A stretch of 48,967 nucleotides of DNA from Patescibacteria group bacterium (GTDB lineage: Bacteria > Patescibacteriota > Minisyncoccia > Minisyncoccales > Staskawiczbacteraceae). Each line of letters starts with the position of its first letter. Position 1 is the stretch's first letter. This document shows positions 3,364 through 47,815 of this stretch, in pieces. Position numbers and translations under genes: made by a program. The stretch spans positions 1 through 48,967 of the forward strand of contig JAHIOM010000011.1 of assembly GCA_018895235.1 (NCBI GenBank), given 5' to 3'. Below the pieces are notes generated by a model. It was not told the DNA's origin. It ran no database searches and worked only from the letters and a program-made list of their open reading frames with translations.

Positions 3364-5190
3364 TTATCCTCTTTTAATCAATTTTTCAAACTCTTCTCTT
3401 TCAATAGTTTCTTTCTTAATCAAGGTTCTGGCAATTTTATTGAGTAATTTTTTCTTTTTATTCAAAATATTAGTTGCTTCTTTTTCGGCATTCTTGATAA
3501 ACTTTTCCACTTCTTTATCAATCAGGGCGGCTACTTTTTCAGAATAATTCCTTTGTTCTGAAATCTCCTTTCCTAAAAATACCAGTTCTTCTTTTTCACC
3601 AAAAGAAATCGGTCCCAAAGAAGACATTCCGTATACTTTAACTAATTTTCTGGCTAAATCCGAAGCCCTTGTCAAATCATTGCTAGCGCCAGTTGTTATT
3701 TCTTTAAATATTATTTTTTCTGCGCAATAACCGCCAAGCAGAGTTGCTAGTTCTGATAAGAATGCTTTCTTGCCCTTAATCTTTCTCGTTTCGTTCGGCA
3801 TTTGCAAAGTATATCCTGCTGCCATACCCCTGGCAATAATGGAAATTTTCCTTATAGGTTCTGTTCCCGGGAGAGAGGCGGAAACTAAAGCATGACCGGC
3901 TTCATGGAAAGCAGCAATTTCTTTTTCATTTTTCGATAAAATATGGCTTTTTCTTTCTGGTCCCAATAAAACTTTTTCAATCGATTCTTGAAACTCTTCT
4001 TGGTAAATTTGAGTTTTATTTCTTTTAGCAGCTAAGAGAGCGGCTTCATTAGCAACATTAGCCAAGTCTGCTCCGGAAAACCCGGGAGTTCTTTCGGCAA
4101 TTTCTCTTAAGTTAATGCCGTTTACCAATGGTTTGTTTTTGCAGTGAATTTTCAAAATTGATTCTCTATCGTTTATATCTGGTGGGTCCAAAACAATTTT
4201 TCTATCAAACCTGCCTGGTCTCAAAAGCGCAGGATCTAATATGTCGCCTCGATTGGTTGCTGCCATTACAATTACATTACTTTCTCTTTCAAATCCGTCC
4301 ATTTCAACCAATATCTGGTTTAATGTTTGTTCCCTTTCATCGTGTCCTCCGCCAATTCCAGCGCCTCTGTGTCTGCCGATAGCGTCTAATTCATCAATAA
4401 AAATAATTGAAGGAGAATGTTTTTTTGCCACATTAAATAAATCTCTTACCCTTGCCGAGCCGACTCCAACAAACATTTCTACAAACTCTGAGCCAGAAAT
4501 AGAAAAGAAGGGCACATTTGCTTCTCCAGCTACTGCTCTTGCTAATAATGTTTTTCCAACGCCAGCCACACCCAAAAGCAATACACCGCGCGGAATTTTT
4601 GCACCCATTTGAAGATATTTTTTGGGAAACTTTAGGAAATCAACAATTTCTTTCAATTCTTCTTTTGCCTCTTTTAAGCCGGCAACATCTTTAAAGCTGA
4701 TTTTGTCTTTGGGGTGGCCTTCTGCTCCGAATAGACGGGCTTTGGATTTAGTAAAATCAAATGCCTGCATTGCCCCACCTTTTGCTTGGCGGAATATCAT
4801 CCAGAAAAATACCCCGAATACTACCAAGGGCAGAATTCCGAATATTAAAATTGGTGTTAACCAAGACCAAAAATCCTCTTTCTGTTTTTGGATATCGATT
4901 TCAAGAGCAATCAATTTTTCCTTATCAACGCCGTAATTTATCAAAGATTCAGCCAAAGTAACACTTGTTTCTTTTTTAGATACAGCTTTTTGGCCGTCTT
5001 TATAAATAACAGAAAGGTCCTCGCCCTCAACTGTAATTTTTTCTACTTTATCCTGATTAATTTCTCCCACTAGTTGGCTCATGGAAATCTCTGATGTTTG
5101 TTCAACGGGAATAGCAATAATACTAAAAATTCCTCCCAACACCAAAAAAATCAGGATTATTATAATAAAATTTTTAAGCAAAATGTTCAC
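3364..5190 (-). CDS. ftsH: ATP-dependent zinc metalloprotease FtsH
   Basis: Two N-terminal TMs, GVAGVGKT Walker A, FIDELDAIGR Walker B, SRH region, HEAGH zinc motif. Provided ORF extends to a GTG at 5196; a GTG at 5188-5190 is equally likely. Confidence 0.97.
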   Translation of the reverse strand: MNILLKNFIIIILIFLVLGGIFSIIAIPVEQTSEISMSQLVGEINQDKVEKITVEGEDLSVIYKDGQKAVSKKETSVTLAESLINYGVDKEKLIALEIDIQKQKEDFWSWLTPILIFGILPLVVFGVFFWMIFRQAKGGAMQAFDFTKSKARLFGAEGHPKDKISFKDVAGLKEAKEELKEIVDFLKFPKKYLQMGAKIPRGVLLLGVAGVGKTLLARAVAGEANVPFFSISGSEFVEMFVGVGSARVRDLFNVAKKHSPSIIFIDELDAIGRHRGAGIGGGHDEREQTLNQILVEMDGFERESNVIVMAATNRGDILDPALLRPGRFDRKIVLDPPDINDRESILKIHCKNKPLVNGINLREIAERTPGFSGADLANVANEAALLAAKRNKTQIYQEEFQESIEKVLLGPERKSHILSKNEKEIAAFHEAGHALVSASLPGTEPIRKISIIARGMAAGYTLQMPNETRKIKGKKAFLSELATLLGGYCAEKIIFKEITTGASNDLTRASDLARKLVKVYGMSSLGPISFGEKEELVFLGKEISEQRNYSEKVAALIDKEVEKFIKNAEKEATNILNKKKKLLNKIARTLIKKETIEREEFEKLIKRG

Positions 5191-5336
5191 CCCCACACCA
5201 AACGAGTTTATCGTTTCAAGATTTTATAATGTCGCTATCTTGAAACGTTTTACTCGTATGTTTTTAAATTATTATCTTTGTTATACAACCCTCACACTTG
5301 AGTCGAATAAAATTAAAACTCGTTTGGTGTGGGGGT
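5189..5336. repeat. ~148-bp element with ~21-bp perfect terminal inverted repeats and an internal inverted repeat
   Basis: acccccacaccaaacgagttt at 5189 is repeated inverted as aaactcgtttggtgtgggggt at 5316-5336; inner cgtttcaagat/atcttgaaacg. Confidence 0.9.
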
Positions 5337-5409: not shown

Positions 5410-5558
5410 CCCCAGCACAAATTTTGCTAAATACGAGGTGGCAACCCGCTTCGCCCAACAAGGTATGGGGCTGTTCGCCCCACGCAGGTTGCAAAGTTAA
5501 AACCTTATCATTATTTATTCGATTTGTCTAAACAAAACCACGGCAAAATTTGTGCGGG
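5410..5558. repeat. Structured repeat element, copy A
   Basis: Outer stem gcacaaattttgc/gcaaaatttgtgc, middle stem gcaacc/ggttgc, hairpin tggggc-tgttc-gcccca; homologous to 9016-9161. Confidence 0.88.
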
Positions 5559-5607
5559 ATTATTTTGTTTTTTCTATATTAAAAATAAGGAAACAAAATA
5601 AAAAAAG

Positions 5608-5630
5608 AGGCGCTGTCGAGAACAGCGCCT
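5608..5630 (-). terminator. Rho-independent terminator
   Basis: aggcgctgtcgagaacagcgcct followed by a T-run on the minus strand. Confidence 0.8.
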
Positions 5631-5694
5631 TTAATCGCTAACAGGTCTTGTTATGGGTTCAATTCAACCGATCTCTCGAAAATCGGTTACGTTA

Positions 5695-6798
5695 CTACCG
5701 GGAACTTTTGGAGGCTACGACGTTGGTGTCGTTGTTTTCCGGGGCGGTCTCCTCGCCCTTGTCATTTTGTTCTCTGTCGGATGTCTCAATTTCGGCTTCC
5801 GGGAGGATTTCTCCTAGTTTGGCATTTGCTATGGCTCGTTTGATAGAGAACCACAGCATCCTGACCTTGCGGCCGTACTCAGGCTTGTCTTTAATGAAGG
5901 GTGGTTTATCCCATGAGAGGGATTCAACCTTCAAGAAGACTGGCGGCCTGAGATCCATTGCCTCGCGGATGCTTCGCTCGAAATTGCCCCACCCGTGGAG
6001 CTCGTTGCAGACATCGATGACAGTAATCTTCTCGCCGTCGCTGTGGACGACCAGACGACCGCCTTCGAGTCGAAACGACTTTTCCCTTTCGTCGCCTTTT
6101 GGTTCTTGACTGGGGACGTCGATAACATAGTTACCGGGTTTGCCGATAACCAGGTCATCAAGATTGGTCGTTCCCATCTGAACCAATTCTTCCTTCTTGA
6201 TTCTCCATCCTTCGCGGACAGCGGCCCAGACCCGAGTAAGCATAGCCCTGAAGGCCTGCTGGATCTGGATTATGTGATTTTCTTCGAAGGAGGCGTCCAA
6301 GGAGAAATTGTACTGCTTGAGTTGGGCCGAGATTGATCCTTCGCCAGTGGTTTCCACTACCAGCTGTTTTTGTTTGACCATGTCGGCCAAAAGTAAAGCT
6401 ACTCCCGCGTGGCTGGTGTAAGTCTGGCTGAACCTGGACAAGAATAGGGCTAACCAGGCAGCGCGCCTGATGGTCGTATTCTCGTGGTTCAAGAGACCTG
6501 CCAGTGTTTTGCGGTACTTCTTTGCTTCGTTGGCGAAACGGTCCCGTTTGGCCTGGTTGGACCCGTCGTAATTGGCTAACCAAGTTGAAGCAGTAGTTAC
6601 CCACTGGTTAACCTGATCAGCGCTCTGTTCCAGCTTCTGGTCCATTTCCTCAGTGGCAGCCATATCTACAACCTTTGGTAGGGCATCCACTGGAGGGGGT
6701 TCCGGCACTTTAATCACGTCCGGGGTTATGTCCTGAAAACTGTCGCCTTCTGGTCCGCCGCCCTTCAAATCTTTCTTTTCTTTTCTTTCGCGTTTCAT
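5695..6798 (-). CDS. Hypothetical protein of unknown family in a locally GC-rich segment
   Basis: Long ORF, strong upstream promoter (6869-6897) and downstream terminator; no family recognised. Confidence 0.8.
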   Translation of the reverse strand: MKRERKEKKDLKGGGPEGDSFQDITPDVIKVPEPPPVDALPKVVDMAATEEMDQKLEQSADQVNQWVTTASTWLANYDGSNQAKRDRFANEAKKYRKTLAGLLNHENTTIRRAAWLALFLSRFSQTYTSHAGVALLLADMVKQKQLVVETTGEGSISAQLKQYNFSLDASFEENHIIQIQQAFRAMLTRVWAAVREGWRIKKEELVQMGTTNLDDLVIGKPGNYVIDVPSQEPKGDEREKSFRLEGGRLVVHSDGEKITVIDVCNELHGWGNFERSIREAMDLRPPVFLKVESLSWDKPPFIKDKPEYGRKVRMLWFSIKRAIANAKLGEILPEAEIETSDREQNDKGEETAPENNDTNVVASKSSR

Positions 6799-6868
6799 GG
6801 GTTTTACCCTTTCTAGGCCTTAGGCCTTTCTGTAAAATTGACCTGTTGCGATTTTAAGAACTGGTTAT

Positions 6869-6897
6869 ATTTTAGCATATTATATAAATCTTGTCAA
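6869..6897 (-). promoter_or_regulatory. Sigma70-type promoter (TTGACA-17-TAAAAT)
   Basis: Minus strand TTGACA (6892-6897), 17-nt spacer, TAAAAT (6869-6874), upstream of the 5695-6798 ORF. Confidence 0.75.
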
Positions 6898-6920
6898 TAA
6901 AAAACCACCATCAAAGAAAA

Positions 6921-6943
6921 AACAGCGTTGGAAAGCGCTGTTT
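6921..6943 (-). terminator. Rho-independent terminator
   Basis: aacagcgttggaaagcgctgttt with T-rich minus-strand 3' side. Confidence 0.75.
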
Positions 6944-7514
6944 AATTTGTAGAATTATCTTTGGGCGAGAAAAAGTATATCGCCCTTTCGTTGGATATAG
7001 GATTTCTACAGGCAAATTTTGCCAACTCCTTGGAAAGAGATTTTTCATTGCCTGCAATAATAATAATCTTTAAACCTGAACGTTCTGCTTCTTTAACAAG
7101 AGGCAGAAAATCTTGGTCTCCGCTTCCTATACACAAATAGGATAGGTCTCCCATTTCAGCAATCATTTCTTTTCCGAATTCAATCATTTCAGAATCAACA
7201 GTATCTATTCTGGGACCAGTTTTTTCTACAACAACTTTTGGGCATACTATTGCCCAGAATTTCATTTGGGATAAAATATCTAGATTAAGGTTGATTGCCG
7301 GCGGCGGTCCAAAAACAAAAACCTCCACGACTCTCCCGAATTCTCCTAACTTCCGTATTATTTTTGTAAAACCTCCAACCAGTGAAAATCCAAAGGGGCC
7401 GGTAGAATCGGTATTAAGCAACAAATTTTCTAAATCTAATAATACCAAGATTTTACGCTTTGGCTTTGGCTTTTTCCATCGCCTCAAAAATTTGTTATAC
7501 CAAAGAATACGCAT
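6942..7514 (-). CDS. NYN-domain (LabA/DUF88-like) protein, putative nuclease
   Basis: KILVLLDLENLL..., VDSEMIEFGKEM, LCIGSGDQDFLPLVKEAERSGLKIIIIAG match the NYN/PIN-like pattern. Confidence 0.85.
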   Translation of the reverse strand: MRILWYNKFLRRWKKPKPKRKILVLLDLENLLLNTDSTGPFGFSLVGGFTKIIRKLGEFGRVVEVFVFGPPPAINLNLDILSQMKFWAIVCPKVVVEKTGPRIDTVDSEMIEFGKEMIAEMGDLSYLCIGSGDQDFLPLVKEAERSGLKIIIIAGNEKSLSKELAKFACRNPISNERAIYFFSPKDNSTN

Positions 7515-7629
7515 GATATTCCTTCCTTTCCGTTATAACAAATGCGGCTAATCCTCTCTGTTCCTTACTCCTTTTCAAAGTGCTCTAAAATTGCTTTCTG
7601 TATTCTATATAAAAGAAATAAATTTGTCA

Positions 7630-7716
7630 ACCCTTCACCTTTCGGTAGATACAGTATTATTGTAAAGAAAATAAGAAATTATAACTGCCACAGGGTGTTC
7701 CCGAAAGGTGAAGGGT
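7630..7716. repeat. MITE-like palindromic element, acccttcaccttt family, copy 1 (16-bp perfect TIRs)
   Basis: acccttcacctttcgg ... ccgaaaggtgaagggt. Confidence 0.9.
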
Positions 7717-7777
7717 CAACTCCATTAACCAAAACAAAAACCCCTTAAAGGGGTTTAAAACTCCGCAATAAAATTAA

Positions 7778-8893
7778 TTATTCCTTTTTAATTAACTTCA
7801 AACTCATTCTGTATTCCTTTGGTTCAACCGCGGAAATCTGAAATTCATAAACTTGGCCGATTTTTAACATTTCTTCCATTTTTTTTTGCGAACCGAATTC
7901 GGAAATATGACAAAGTCCTTGAATCTTAGCTTCGTTTTTGCTGGCATCTGAAGCGGGCGCAGATTCAATTTGAACAAAAGCGCCGAAAGGATTGAATTTA
8001 GTTACCTTGCCCGTGACCTTGTCTCCTTTTTTGTATTTTTTTTCAAGACTCTCCCAAGGATTCTTTTTCAAACTTTTTAAAGAAAGGAATACTTGGCTAT
8101 TCTTAATTTCAATAATTTGAGCTTTTATAACTTCACCGATTTTTACCAAATCAGCCGGGTTTTCAATTAATTGCCAGTCCAATTCAGAAATATGGATTAG
8201 GCCTTCTATTTGAGAGACAGAATCTTTGGCGGGTAGCACGGGGAACTTTATAAAAACCCCAAAATTAGCAATGCCAGAAATCTCGCCGTCAATTACGTCG
8301 CCCTTTTTATAATTTTCCAGAATCTCTTTTATTTTTTCTTCGCTTTTTGCCTTTTCTGACAGAATTAATTTGTTTTCTTCCGCTAGCAAATCGAGTATTT
8401 TTACTTCCAATGTTTGACCGATAAACTTTTGGAGTTCCTTTAATATTTTTTGTCTATCAGCATCAGCCACCCTTGGATAATGTTCTGGGGAAAGTTGCGA
8501 AACCGGCAAGAACGCCGAGATGTCTTCAACTGCGGTCAGAAGGCCACCCTTATTGACGCCGGTAATTTTAACTTTAAAAATATCTCCTTTTTCTTTGATA
8601 TCTCTTAACTTCTGCCAGCCGATTTGTTTAGTTGCTTCCCTTAAAGAAAGTTCTTTATAGCCATCCTCATTTTCTAACTCTGTTACTTTGGCATAAATCT
8701 TGTCTCCGACTTTTAAATCTTTTATAATCCTTTTTGCCTCATAGAATTCCCTTCCGTATATTATGCCGTTTCCGTGTATTCCTAAATCAACAAAAAGAGA
8801 TGAACGATCTCTGCCGACGACTGTGCCTTCTGCAATCGAACCTTTAGAAATCTGCGAAGGCGTTTCTTCATTTTTTATAATATCTTGTTCCAT
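7778..8893 (-). CDS. rpsA: S1 RNA-binding domain protein (30S ribosomal protein S1-like)
   Basis: Repeated S1 domains (GTVVGRDRSSLFVDLG..., GVFIKF...IEGLIHISELDW, KVTKFNPFGAFVQIE...GLCHISEF). Confidence 0.88.
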   Translation of the reverse strand: MEQDIIKNEETPSQISKGSIAEGTVVGRDRSSLFVDLGIHGNGIIYGREFYEAKRIIKDLKVGDKIYAKVTELENEDGYKELSLREATKQIGWQKLRDIKEKGDIFKVKITGVNKGGLLTAVEDISAFLPVSQLSPEHYPRVADADRQKILKELQKFIGQTLEVKILDLLAEENKLILSEKAKSEEKIKEILENYKKGDVIDGEISGIANFGVFIKFPVLPAKDSVSQIEGLIHISELDWQLIENPADLVKIGEVIKAQIIEIKNSQVFLSLKSLKKNPWESLEKKYKKGDKVTGKVTKFNPFGAFVQIESAPASDASKNEAKIQGLCHISEFGSQKKMEEMLKIGQVYEFQISAVEPKEYRMSLKLIKKE

Positions 8894-9015
8894 AGTAATA
8901 TTTTCTAATATACACTATCTACAAAATTTAGCAAGAACCAGCAGAAGAAAAAACCTTGTGTTAAGAGACGATTTATGATATTATTGTATAATTACTTCTT
9001 TAAATTGTAATGCAA

Positions 9016-9161
9016 CCCCGCACAAATTTTGCGGGGTATTCAACCGCAGCCCGCTTCGCCCAACAAGGGATGTCCCTATTCGGGACGCGCAGGCTGCAAA
9101 GATTTACGACTTTATTAAAATTCTTTTATTGAGCGAAAGCGGTGGCAAAATTTAAGCGGGG
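9016..9161. repeat. Structured repeat element, copy B
   Basis: Same architecture as 5410-5558; conserved cccgcttcgcccaacaagg; stems gcagcc/ggctgc and gtccc/gggac. Confidence 0.88.
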
Positions 9162-9197
9162 TGCTCATTTATTTCTTCGCCGACGCTCATCGATAAA

Positions 9198-9854
9198 ATG
9201 AGCAAAATTATTTGGGCAGGACAGTCGTGTTTTCAGATCGCTGTCTCCAATTCTAAAGATCATTCAGCTCAAATTGTGATAGATCCCTTCGATGAAAAAA
9301 TAGGCTTGAAGGCCCCTCGGTTTTCTGCTGATATTCTGCTTATTACCCATAATCATTCGGACCACGACAATAAAAAGATTGTTAAGGGCGAACCGTTTTT
9401 AATAGAAGGTCCCGGCGAATTTGAAGTAAAAGGAGTTTTTATTAGGGGGATTTCTGCTTTTCATGATGATTCGCAGGGAAAAGAAAGGGGGCGAATTACA
9501 ATCTATACTATTGAGGCAGAAGGTATGAAATTTTGTCATTTAGGGGATTTGGGCCAGTCGCAACTAACAGACGAACAGTTAGAGGAGATAGGTTCGGTTG
9601 ATGTTTTAATGATTCCTATCGGTGGGACATATACAATTTCCAGCCAAGAGGCCTCAAAAATAATTTCTCAAATAGAACCGAAAATTGTTATCCCAATGCA
9701 TTATCAGATGCCAAACCTTAAATTAAAATTAGATGACGTTAAGAAGTTTTTGAAAGTTATGGGGAAAAACTCAATTATACCGCAAGAAAAGTTTCAGGTG
9801 AAAGAAAACGCTCTGCCTAAAGAAGGAATGGAAATAGTAATATTAATGCCATAA
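9198..9854 (+). CDS. Metallo-beta-lactamase-fold hydrolase (UPF0173-like)
   Basis: ADILLITHNHSDHD, CHLGDLG, PMHYQMP motifs. Confidence 0.88.
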   Translation: MSKIIWAGQSCFQIAVSNSKDHSAQIVIDPFDEKIGLKAPRFSADILLITHNHSDHDNKKIVKGEPFLIEGPGEFEVKGVFIRGISAFHDDSQGKERGRITIYTIEAEGMKFCHLGDLGQSQLTDEQLEEIGSVDVLMIPIGGTYTISSQEASKIISQIEPKIVIPMHYQMPNLKLKLDDVKKFLKVMGKNSIIPQEKFQVKENALPKEGMEIVILMP

Positions 9855-12550: not shown

Positions 12551-12592
12551 GCGGTAATCAATAATAGTTGCAGGTTTTTATGGTTTTATTGT

Positions 12593-12643
12593 ATAATTAT
12601 AAGTGAGGAAGAAATGAGAATTTATTCTCATTTCGACCGAGCG
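12593..12643 (+). repeat. Hairpin repeat, agtgaggaagaaatga..tcatttcgaccgagcg family, copy 1
   Basis: Identical core to 12667-12717, 74-bp period; stem gaaatgagaat/attctcatttc. Confidence 0.92.
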
Positions 12644-12666
12644 ATTAAATATGTAGCGTAGCTATA

Positions 12667-12717
12667 ATAATTATAAGTGAGGAAGAAATGAGAATTTATT
12701 CTCATTTCGACCGAGCG
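12667..12717 (+). repeat. Hairpin repeat, copy 2
   Basis: 51-bp identity with copy 1. Confidence 0.92.
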
Positions 12718-12762
12718 CATAATTATTTGGTAGAACCAACATAATTTTATAATATAGCGAAT

Positions 12763-13098
12763 ATGGTAATTATGAAAAAAATATATATTTTACCTCTTCT
12801 GATTATTATAGGCGTATCATTTGTTAGTTTGGCAACCGCGGCTGAAATTACTAATCCGTTAGGCAACACCAAAGATATTAAAACCCTTATAACCAAAATT
12901 GCTGACGGAGTAGTGGTTATTATTGGTCCTATAGCAACTATAATGTTAATAGTCGCCGGTATTTTGTATCTTACTTCAGCTGGCAACCCCGAAAGAATTA
13001 ATAACGCAAAAACCGCTCTTATATACGCTGTGATTGGAATTGCCGTTGCTATATCGGCAAAAGGAGTAGCTGAATTTATTGGAACCACCTTAAAATAA
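12763..13098 (+). CDS. T4SS-pilin/VirB2-like small membrane protein
   Basis: Signal peptide plus two TMs, VIIGPIATIMLIVAGILYLTSAGNPERINNAKTALIYAVIGIAVAI. Confidence 0.8.
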   Translation: MVIMKKIYILPLLIIIGVSFVSLATAAEITNPLGNTKDIKTLITKIADGVVVIIGPIATIMLIVAGILYLTSAGNPERINNAKTALIYAVIGIAVAISAKGVAEFIGTTLK

Positions 13099-25782: not shown

Positions 25783-25813
25783 TTCACATTTTGTGGAGCA
25801 AAAAGATTGTTGT

Positions 25814-25864
25814 ATAATTATAAGTGAGGAAGAAATGAAAGCTTGCTTTCATTTCGACCGAACG
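25814..25864 (+). repeat. Hairpin repeat, copy 3
   Basis: Same flanks as copies 1/2; loop region replaced by aaagcttgcttt. Confidence 0.92.
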
Positions 25865-25887
25865 ATTAAATATTTGGCGTAGTCAAC

Positions 25888-25938
25888 ATAATTATAAGTG
25901 AGGAAGGAATGAAAGCTTGCTTTCATTTCGACCGAACG
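25888..25938 (+). repeat. Hairpin repeat, copy 4
   Basis: 74 bp from copy 3, nearly identical. Confidence 0.92.
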
Positions 25939-25966
25939 ATTAAATATGTAGCGTAGCGATAATCAT

Positions 25967-31756: not shown

Positions 31757-31769
31757 ACCCCGCCCCCTA
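31757..31769 (+). repeat. 13-bp terminal inverted repeat, left
   Basis: accccgcccccta; exact inverse at 31992-32004. Confidence 0.92.
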
Positions 31770-31775
31770 TGCAGT

Positions 31776-31994
31776 ATGTATTATATTTATATTCTTAAAA
31801 CTAAAAAAGGTTTCTATATTGGATATACAGAAGATTTAAAAAGAAGATTAAAACAACACCAAAGAGACAAAGAAAGTGTAAGATTAATCTACTATGAAGC
31901 TTATTTGACAGAAAAAATAGCTAGAACGCGCGAAAGAAAATTAAAATATTATGGTAGTGTCTGGCGAGCCCTCAAAAAAAGAATTATCGCTTAG
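31776..31994 (+). CDS. GIY-YIG nuclease domain protein
   Basis: YYIYILKTKKGFYIGYTEDLKRRLKQH...YYEAYLTEKIARTRERKLK. Confidence 0.92.
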   Translation: MYYIYILKTKKGFYIGYTEDLKRRLKQHQRDKESVRLIYYEAYLTEKIARTRERKLKYYGSVWRALKKRIIA

Positions 31995-32004
31995 GGGGCG
32001 GGGT
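31992..32004 (+). repeat. 13-bp terminal inverted repeat, right
   Basis: tagggggcggggt; overlaps the GIY-YIG stop codon. Confidence 0.92.
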
Positions 32005-34624: not shown

Positions 34625-34726
34625 ACCCTTCACCTTTTATTTCCTATATGAAAATTAAACAAAGTAAAATTAATAAACAATCAAAGTATTACTTTTCTCA
34701 TAACATCATTAAAAAAGGTGAAGGGT
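34625..34726. repeat. MITE-like palindromic element, acccttcaccttt family, copy 2
   Basis: acccttcacctttt ... aaaaggtgaagggt. Confidence 0.88.
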
Positions 34727-39066: not shown

Positions 39067-39134
39067 ACCCTTCACCTTTCTTTTGTTATACTTTATTATA
39101 TTGTGTTCTAAGTGACAAAAAGAAGGTGAAGGGT
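39067..39134. repeat. MITE-like palindromic element, acccttcaccttt family, copy 3
   Basis: acccttcacctttctttt ... aaaaagaaggtgaagggt; 13 bp from the IS left end. Confidence 0.85.
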
Positions 39135-47374: not shown

Positions 47375-47437
47375 TTAGCCTCGCCCGTAGGCCTAGCCTT
47401 CGTGGCTACGGCCGAGGGAACTTGTTTAGTATAAAAA
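47375..47437 (+). repeat. ~62-bp direct repeat, copy 1
   Basis: ttagcctcgcccgtaggcctagccttcgtggctacggccgagggaacttgtttagtataaaaa. Confidence 0.93.
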
Positions 47438-47438
47438 T

Positions 47439-47639
47439 TTACTTTTTAATATTTTTCCCAGATGCTAAAGAAGTAAACCACAAAATGAATGGTCTTCTTA
47501 ATCTATCTATAGACCAATTATCATCCTTGAAAAGGGAGTTTTTCTCCGCTTTAAATTGGGTAAGTAAAGATAAGGTGGCTTGAAGGTGTAAGGGAGATAA
47601 TTTATTATGTTCTTCTAAAAAATGCTGCTTTTTGGTCAT
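47439..47639 (-). CDS. Small hypothetical ORF between the direct repeats
   Basis: 66-aa ORF (MTKKQHFLEEHNKLSPLHLQATLSLLTQFK...) exactly between two direct repeats; coding status uncertain. Confidence 0.4.
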   Translation of the reverse strand: MTKKQHFLEEHNKLSPLHLQATLSLLTQFKAEKNSLFKDDNWSIDRLRRPFILWFTSLASGKNIKK

Positions 47640-47701: not shown

Positions 47702-47763
47702 TTAGCCTCGCCCGTAGGCCTAGCCTTCGGGCTACGGCCGAGGGAACTTGTTTAGTATAAAAA
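47702..47763 (+). repeat. ~62-bp direct repeat, copy 2
   Basis: Identical to 47375-47437 apart from a 1-nt deletion in the hairpin loop. Confidence 0.93.
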
Positions 47764-47815
47764 ATAACTCACCTTTTTCAAGGTGAGTTAAAAATTAAAA
47801 TCTTTTTAAAGTTTC

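Follow-up and report, generated by a model that had tools for sequence, protein, structure and literature searches.

Prokaryotic miniature inverted-repeat transposable elements (MITEs), such as the Correia element of Neisseria, are shorter than 500 bp, have inverted ends, no open reading frame (ORF) and a stable stem-loop, lie next to genes, and carry target duplications in their younger copies (PMC10969869). Here we analysed two MITE-like elements, copies A and B, in a 48,967-nucleotide stretch of DNA (hereafter the window; contig JAHIOM010000011.1) from a Patescibacteria group bacterium. They share the size, the inverted ends, the lack of an ORF, the stable stem-loop, and the position next to genes, and target duplications are clear in sister families; they differ from MITEs in having a strongly folded, covarying multi-stem core, a 3' hairpin that holds a host signal, and apparent partners that encode a GIY-YIG nuclease instead of a classical transposase (PMC10969869). 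The Rickettsia palindromic elements are similar in length (~150 bp), palindromic form, number of unrelated sites and presence in a reduced genome; however, they often lie in frame within ORFs and encode a conserved peptide, whereas the elements here break frame, their sites being gene starts, promoters, terminators, and RNA genes (PMC10969869). REP, BIME, and REPIN sequences with their RAYT proteins are likewise small palindromes, sometimes in inverted pairs, that are mobilised in trans, although REPs are 20–40 bp long with GTAG/CGTC tags and, unlike the elements here, lack long inverted ends and 4-bp duplications (PMC3733652, PMC2817692). Lastly, a survey of ribosomal RNA (rRNA) genes in the Candidate Phyla Radiation (CPR) counts many short uncharacterised insertions, most of them at stem tips or bases, and includes GIY-YIG insertions that match no intron and seem to stand outside a homing context (PMC11270868). 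These short ORF-less or GIY-YIG insertions and the elements here occupy the same type of intervening-sequence site in 23S rRNA, while the inverted ends, target duplications, and family members outside rRNA genes seen here are not described in the consulted passages of that survey (PMC11270868).

Copies A and B are probably non-autonomous palindromic mobile DNA (MITE-like), presumably moved by the machinery of sister elements that encode a GIY-YIG nuclease. Copies are dispersed and have inverted ends, relatives have empty sites, sister families carry 4-bp target duplications, and conserved signals are present again on the right side of the insertions. A first-pass annotation had placed both copies, with one common architecture, within 1–2 nt of where we find them. 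Each is ~150 bp long without a conserved frame, and each is bounded by P1 arms of 16–18 nt that start with CCCC. The two are 80% identical over the inner 56 nt and 69% identical as whole elements, and the window contains exactly two occurrences of their central loop (CCCGCTTCGCCCAACAAGGNATG), which was absent from all 100 shuffles even with 3 mismatches allowed. Beyond what the annotation described, stem P2 reaches 9 bp, P3 (a short stem of CCC/GGG) turns the core into a junction, and a hairpin adjoins the 3' side of both copies. The genome contains a third copy (G000:C20:13095-13261), whose loop holds an extra hairpin. A coding element like that of Rickettsia was considered and rejected, as indels and stop codons break the frame between copies.

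The compensatory changes that the annotation had read in the inner stems are real and recur across homologues. In an initial search at the DNA level, 10 of 98 genomes had relatives, and a model built from 15 sequences has four stems (P1, 17 bp; P2, 9 bp; P3, 3 bp; P4, 6 bp). Among the 15 homologues, 88% of the cells were paired, compared to 78% in shuffled sequences and 31–46% with slid partners; both sides changed at 14 pairs, with a covariation score of 0.292 versus 0.117, the pair counts being inflated by kinship among the sequences. The covariance-model check that the annotation had proposed recovered further homologues in the same genome, the order, and the phylum, with matches in 46 of 247 genomes of the order (no more than 8 per genome, some weak ones being one copy counted on both strands) and in 6 of 388 further genomes sampled across the phylum. 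Copies within one genome reach 95% identity, and the named records with the core are metagenome assemblies of Patescibacteria or Parcubacteria. Consistent with the annotation, which recognised no named family, an Rfam search at both thresholds gave no match, with no family above its gathering cut-off, and a search of a plasmid collection gave none either. The exact core loop was also detected in two putative viral contigs (L230 and L231; IMG/VR), which might serve as transfer vehicles; the search of viral contigs returned neither TTAGAAATTT ends nor a GIY-YIG relative. Relatives that have a full core (L095–L104) contain two inverted half-cores with mirrored CGAATAG and CTATTCG loops, as expected for a DNA palindrome.

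Comparison of related genomes supports insertion. The metallo-beta-lactamase-fold (MBL-fold) gene behind copy B lacks the element and starts with MAK (ATGGC-) in 25 of 27 family genomes, and only this genome and G005 carry the element there, both with the start ATGAGCAAA. Empty sites also occur within one genus at groEL (element present in G190 and G191, absent from G192 and G193), rplC (present in G191, absent from G190, G192, and G193), and rpmA (present in G080, absent from G140–G142 and G144). Exact target duplications of at least 4 bp flank 44 of 78 elements with ends CCCCGTTAGAAAT, compared to 5.1 in shuffled data (maximum 13 in 2000 shuffles), and exact duplications flank 10 of 34 elements with ends CCCCGCACCAATTT, compared to 1.3 expected. 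The commonest duplications (TTTA, TAAA, TTCA, TGAA, TCAA, TTGA, CTTG, and TATG) fit YNNR. The features of the window are collected in Table 1.

Table 1. Palindromic elements, their parts, and adjoining features in the window
Feature	Position	Strand	Details
Copy A, palindromic element	5410..5558	+	P1 arms 5410-5427 / 5543-5558; R1 model 131 bits, E 5e-23
Copy A core	5441..5492	+	P2 5441-5449/5484-5492; P3, the CCC..GG loop stem; P4 5466-5471/5477-5482
Copy A 3' hairpin (TTATTTTGTTT / AAACAAAATAA)	5560..5601	+	outer arm enters T-run of minus-strand terminator
Intrinsic terminator adjoining copy A	5608..5630	-	downstream of minus-strand gene 5695-6798
Copy B, palindromic element	9016..9161	+	P1 arms 9016-9032 / 9145-9161; R1 model 137 bits, E 3.5e-24
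Copy B core	9046..9097	+	P2 9046-9054/9089-9097; P4 9071-9076/9082-9087
Copy B 3' hairpin (GCTCATTT / AAATGAGC)	9163..9203	+	encloses start codon of downstream gene
MBL-fold gene	9198..9854	+	PF13483 165 bits; start ATGAGCAAA (MSK) here, native ATGGC- (MAK) in relatives
Element with inverted ends CCCCGCCCCCTA, 246 bp	31758..32003	+	codes for a GIY-YIG protein of 72 aa; ends shared with six ORF-less copies elsewhere in the genome
Other palindromic element, ends CCCCCACACCAAACGAG	5190..5335		4-bp target duplication TTCA/TGAA; at ftsH start, ATGAAC to GTGAAC
ORF-less element, ends CCCTTCACCTTTCGG	7631..7715		target duplication TCAA
ORF-less element, ends CCCTTCACCTTT	34626..34725		target duplication TTTA
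ORF-less element, ends CCCTTCACCTTT	39068..39133		no exact target duplication

The sites taken by the family are of several kinds. Copies of the window type lie directly upstream of the start codons of genes for L27 (three families), L28 (assigned by reading the sequence, Pfam giving no hit), L32, L33, L3, GroEL (three), DnaK, GlyA, and the MBL-fold protein. Others neighbour a -35 box (TTGACA-17-TATCAT at locus L003 and TTGACA-16-TATAAT at locus L028), and some, copy A among them, meet the T-run of an opposite-strand terminator. In three genomes, 23S rRNA is interrupted by three relatives, one in the opposite orientation, at position 583 of the large-subunit model (helix 25, a known intervening-sequence site); no Rfam model of a group I or II intron matched. 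Two further relatives adjoin the 3' ends of tmRNA and a tRNA. Separately, from a reading of the sequence, the element at L102 seems to interrupt an RNase P RNA gene at the end of a contig too short for a model match.

The 3' hairpin is a regular companion of the element. It adjoins 36 of 57 copies on the right, compared to 7.5 expected when the arm is taken from another copy, while a left-side hairpin was found in 7 of these copies (4.1 expected). Its outer arm holds the start codon, the -35 box, or the terminator run, and in start-codon copies the left flank retains another copy of the start signal, an arrangement that simple cut-and-paste does not explain. At the MBL-fold, DnaK, and L3 genes, the right copy has a second codon unlike the native or left one, and therefore part of the right signal may arrive with the element. 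A long direct duplication to the left of start-codon copies was also considered; the flanks are alike in some cases and too unclear to claim. At three loci of one genome (L052, L069, and L073 of G125), a mirrored left hairpin is present too, and it is conserved with the element and not with the farther flanks.

Because the outer arms of these hairpins match at each different insertion site, this agreement between arms is not bound to any single conserved RNA and need not mean RNA function. The same observation would fit a process in which template switching during replication copies arm onto arm, producing covariation without any function of the fold. We regard such palindrome correction as a somewhat unlikely contributor, one that would modify mobility and not replace it, and the conserved loops and the P2–P4 layout shared across families are not explained by correction alone. 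These data also qualify the conclusion of the first-pass annotation that the copies reflect selection on structure and not simple duplication: its second half holds as far as it was claimed, whereas covarying arms alone are no proof of selection for a folded RNA because the arms of the flanking hairpins also track the sequence of the insertion site.

The annotation had further left a choice between a novel structured RNA and a palindromic element. The terminal inverted repeats, the dispersal of copies, the empty sites, and the duplicated target sequences in sister families support the palindromic element, and an RNA reading of A and B is not supported, given the missing Rfam match, the presence of copies in both orientations relative to transcription, and two properties of the fold. 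First, on the gene-sense strand, A.C mismatches outnumber G.T mismatches (48 versus 14, with 15 coming from one position); second, the antisense strand forms the more stable fold in 18 of 23 copies (p = 0.001, the copies not being independent). A cis-acting, riboswitch-like leader RNA, in which the start codon would be hidden by the 3' hairpin and released once the 5' arm of that hairpin pairs with the left ATGGC, draws on the finding that the GCTCAT arm of start-codon copies can pair with either the left ATGGC or the right start codon, and the genes under control would be those of ribosomal proteins and chaperones. Such a leader would need a constant orientation and position, whereas other copies lie at -35 boxes, beyond terminators, and in 23S rRNA in both orientations; in addition, presence is patchy between sister species, and the gene-sense strand has the mismatch excess and the weaker fold. 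We consider this explanation very improbable. An independent small RNA gene that became duplicated would agree with the stable fold and the lack of an ORF, but promoter, terminator, and orientation are inconsistent between copies, copies lie inside rRNA and beside start codons, and empty sites exist, which together with the Rfam result make such a gene hardly credible. A structured repeat that resembles a new RNA is better explained as mobile DNA, a warning that the search for new RNAs in these genomes can be led astray by paired covariation on its own.

We then turn to the candidate mobiliser. Besides the element at the ftsH start, an inverted-repeat scan of the window returned a 72-aa GIY-YIG ORF bounded by 13-bp inverted repeats (31757–32004); the product of this ORF scores 33.7 bits against PF01541 (cut-off 22.6). 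The tyrosine, arginine, and glutamate conserved in GIY-YIG enzymes are in place, with Y3, Y5, Y14, G16, R24, H28, and E41 invariant in 6 proteins. The encoded ORFs are sequence relatives of the small UPF0213 GIY-YIG proteins (PDB 1zg2, 1ywl). For end-families, 835,217 of the 837,229 bases of this genome were read. The CCCCGCCCYCTA family comprises 1 GIY-YIG element, the one in the window, and 6 ORF-less copies. Asymmetric bases follow its two ends, TATGC on one side and TAAGC on the other, and in the ORF-bearing element they contain the start and stop codons; 5 of the 6 ORF-less copies retain these bases. The CCCRGTTAAATAA family has 1 GIY-YIG element (G000:C10, 282 bp) and ~16 ORF-less copies, and the CCCTTCACC family has 14 ORF-less copies, 11 of them with exact duplications, and a GIY-YIG ORF that is cut by a contig end, its left side reading TTGA directly before CCCTTCACC. 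Three further GIY-YIG ORFs, from other genomes, each fill an element; these elements are 279–295 bp long and have the ends CCCCGTTAGAAATTA, CCCCGTAACATTACATC (duplication TATG), and ACCCCGTTAGAGAT (duplication TGAA). Overall, the nuclease-bearing elements measure 246–295 bp, their ends are designed like those of A and B, and their sole gene encodes a GIY-YIG nuclease of 72–88 aa. We know of no UPF0213 protein that is flanked by inverted ends.

Exact inverted ends of at least 13 bp surround 4 of 6 complete close GIY-YIG homologues, compared to 4 of 1081 control ORFs; the GIY-YIG sample is small and partly selected, the first search having been made by motif and the hidden Markov model built from the sequences so found. 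A control on recurring inverted ends around ORFs was dominated by A/T-rich 10-mers, and we draw no evidence from it. Copy B and L251, an ORF-less member of the CCCCGCCC family, have in common a CCCCG end and a 3' hairpin starting with TGCTCA, and cores like those of the window lie between TTAGA-type ends in L095–L098, ends of a type that also flank GIY-YIG ORFs in L288 and L311. Copies A and B thus likely belong to the mobile system of the GIY-YIG elements, a membership that we infer because no GIY-YIG ORF with the exact ends of A and B was found in 835 of the 837 kb of the genome.

That absence weighs against the proposed mobiliser, as do several other points. Neither A nor B has a simple direct target duplication, as the 3' hairpin interrupts it, and two small GIY-YIG ORFs (L319 and L345) lack inverted ends. 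GIY-YIG enzymes cut or nick DNA and are not known to join strands. In addition, Y1 transposases occur in 34 of the 46 genomes with the element versus 98 of the 201 others (p = 0.003), which leaves another mobiliser possible. In that case, a Y1 transposase (HUH, RAYT-like) would move the palindromes through single-stranded hairpins, and the GIY-YIG elements would share their ends by chance or hitch-hike. The folded core, a possible strand bias, and the one-sided hairpin agree with this explanation, as does the presence of Y1 proteins in 132 of 247 genomes, with enrichment where the element occurs. However, the long inverted ends and target duplications of the wider family are foreign to IS200/IS605 and REP elements, each of three end-families in one genome matches a GIY-YIG element, and 12 of the 46 element genomes have no Y1 match. 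We consider Y1-driven movement unlikely overall, and a Y1 transposase as the sole mobiliser was rejected, the association being modest only. Larger TTAGAAATTT elements with a classical transposase were also sought, and 20 stretches (~4–9 kb) around single-ended matches held only short elements.

To return to mobilisation by GIY-YIG elements, copies A and B each combine terminal inverted repeats starting with CCCC, a foldable core derived from a dyad, and a 3' hairpin with the signal of the insertion site in its outer arm. We hypothesize that they are moved by the machinery of sister elements whose only gene is the 72–88 aa nuclease, which may recognise the inverted ends, and the folded core and 3' hairpin would act as recognition features in the form of DNA, either extruded or single-stranded. 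In transcripts, the long P1 duplex might be tolerated or excised by RNase III, comparable to 23S intervening sequences and Correia elements. More broadly, we tentatively suggest a class of insertion elements in Patescibacteria of 246–295 bp, with inverted ends starting CCC, 4-bp duplications, and one gene for a GIY-YIG nuclease of 72–88 aa running end to end, that also mobilises large populations of ORF-less palindromes including A and B; this is possible, though somewhat less likely than not.

If the GIY-YIG link is true, it would add a new enzyme class to bacterial transposition, and the GIY-YIG elements would count as some of the smallest autonomous transposons and, to our knowledge, the first in bacteria to be moved by a GIY-YIG enzyme. 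Our search of the open-access literature, with subscription papers outside its scope, found no report that joins GIY-YIG proteins with bacterial inverted-repeat elements, and novelty is provisional to that extent. The nuclease is also a candidate, open to testing, for the enzyme behind the short uncharacterised insertions counted in the rRNA genes of the CPR. In these reduced genomes, small elements have repeatedly struck essential genes at their start codons, -35 boxes, and terminators, and these signals survive.

Several minor observations accompany these results. A 68-bp mini element lies at the start of a nucleotidyltransferase-like gene at two loci (L159 and L166, in G038 and G148), where it brings a new start codon and lengthens the encoded protein by MNQKFLTG; at L159, the leader ORF has an overlap at ATGA. 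In the window, repeat units of ~74 bp with the hairpin GAGGAAGAAATGAGAATTTATTCTCATTTCGACCGAGCG, which resemble the outer hairpins of the elements, are found as two tandem copies per place (12586–12726, 12660–12800, and 25807–25947), and a near-exact direct repeat of ~68 bp (beginning TTAGCCTCGCCCGTAGGCCTAGCCTTCG) occurs at 47375–47443 and 47702–47769, ~327 bp apart.

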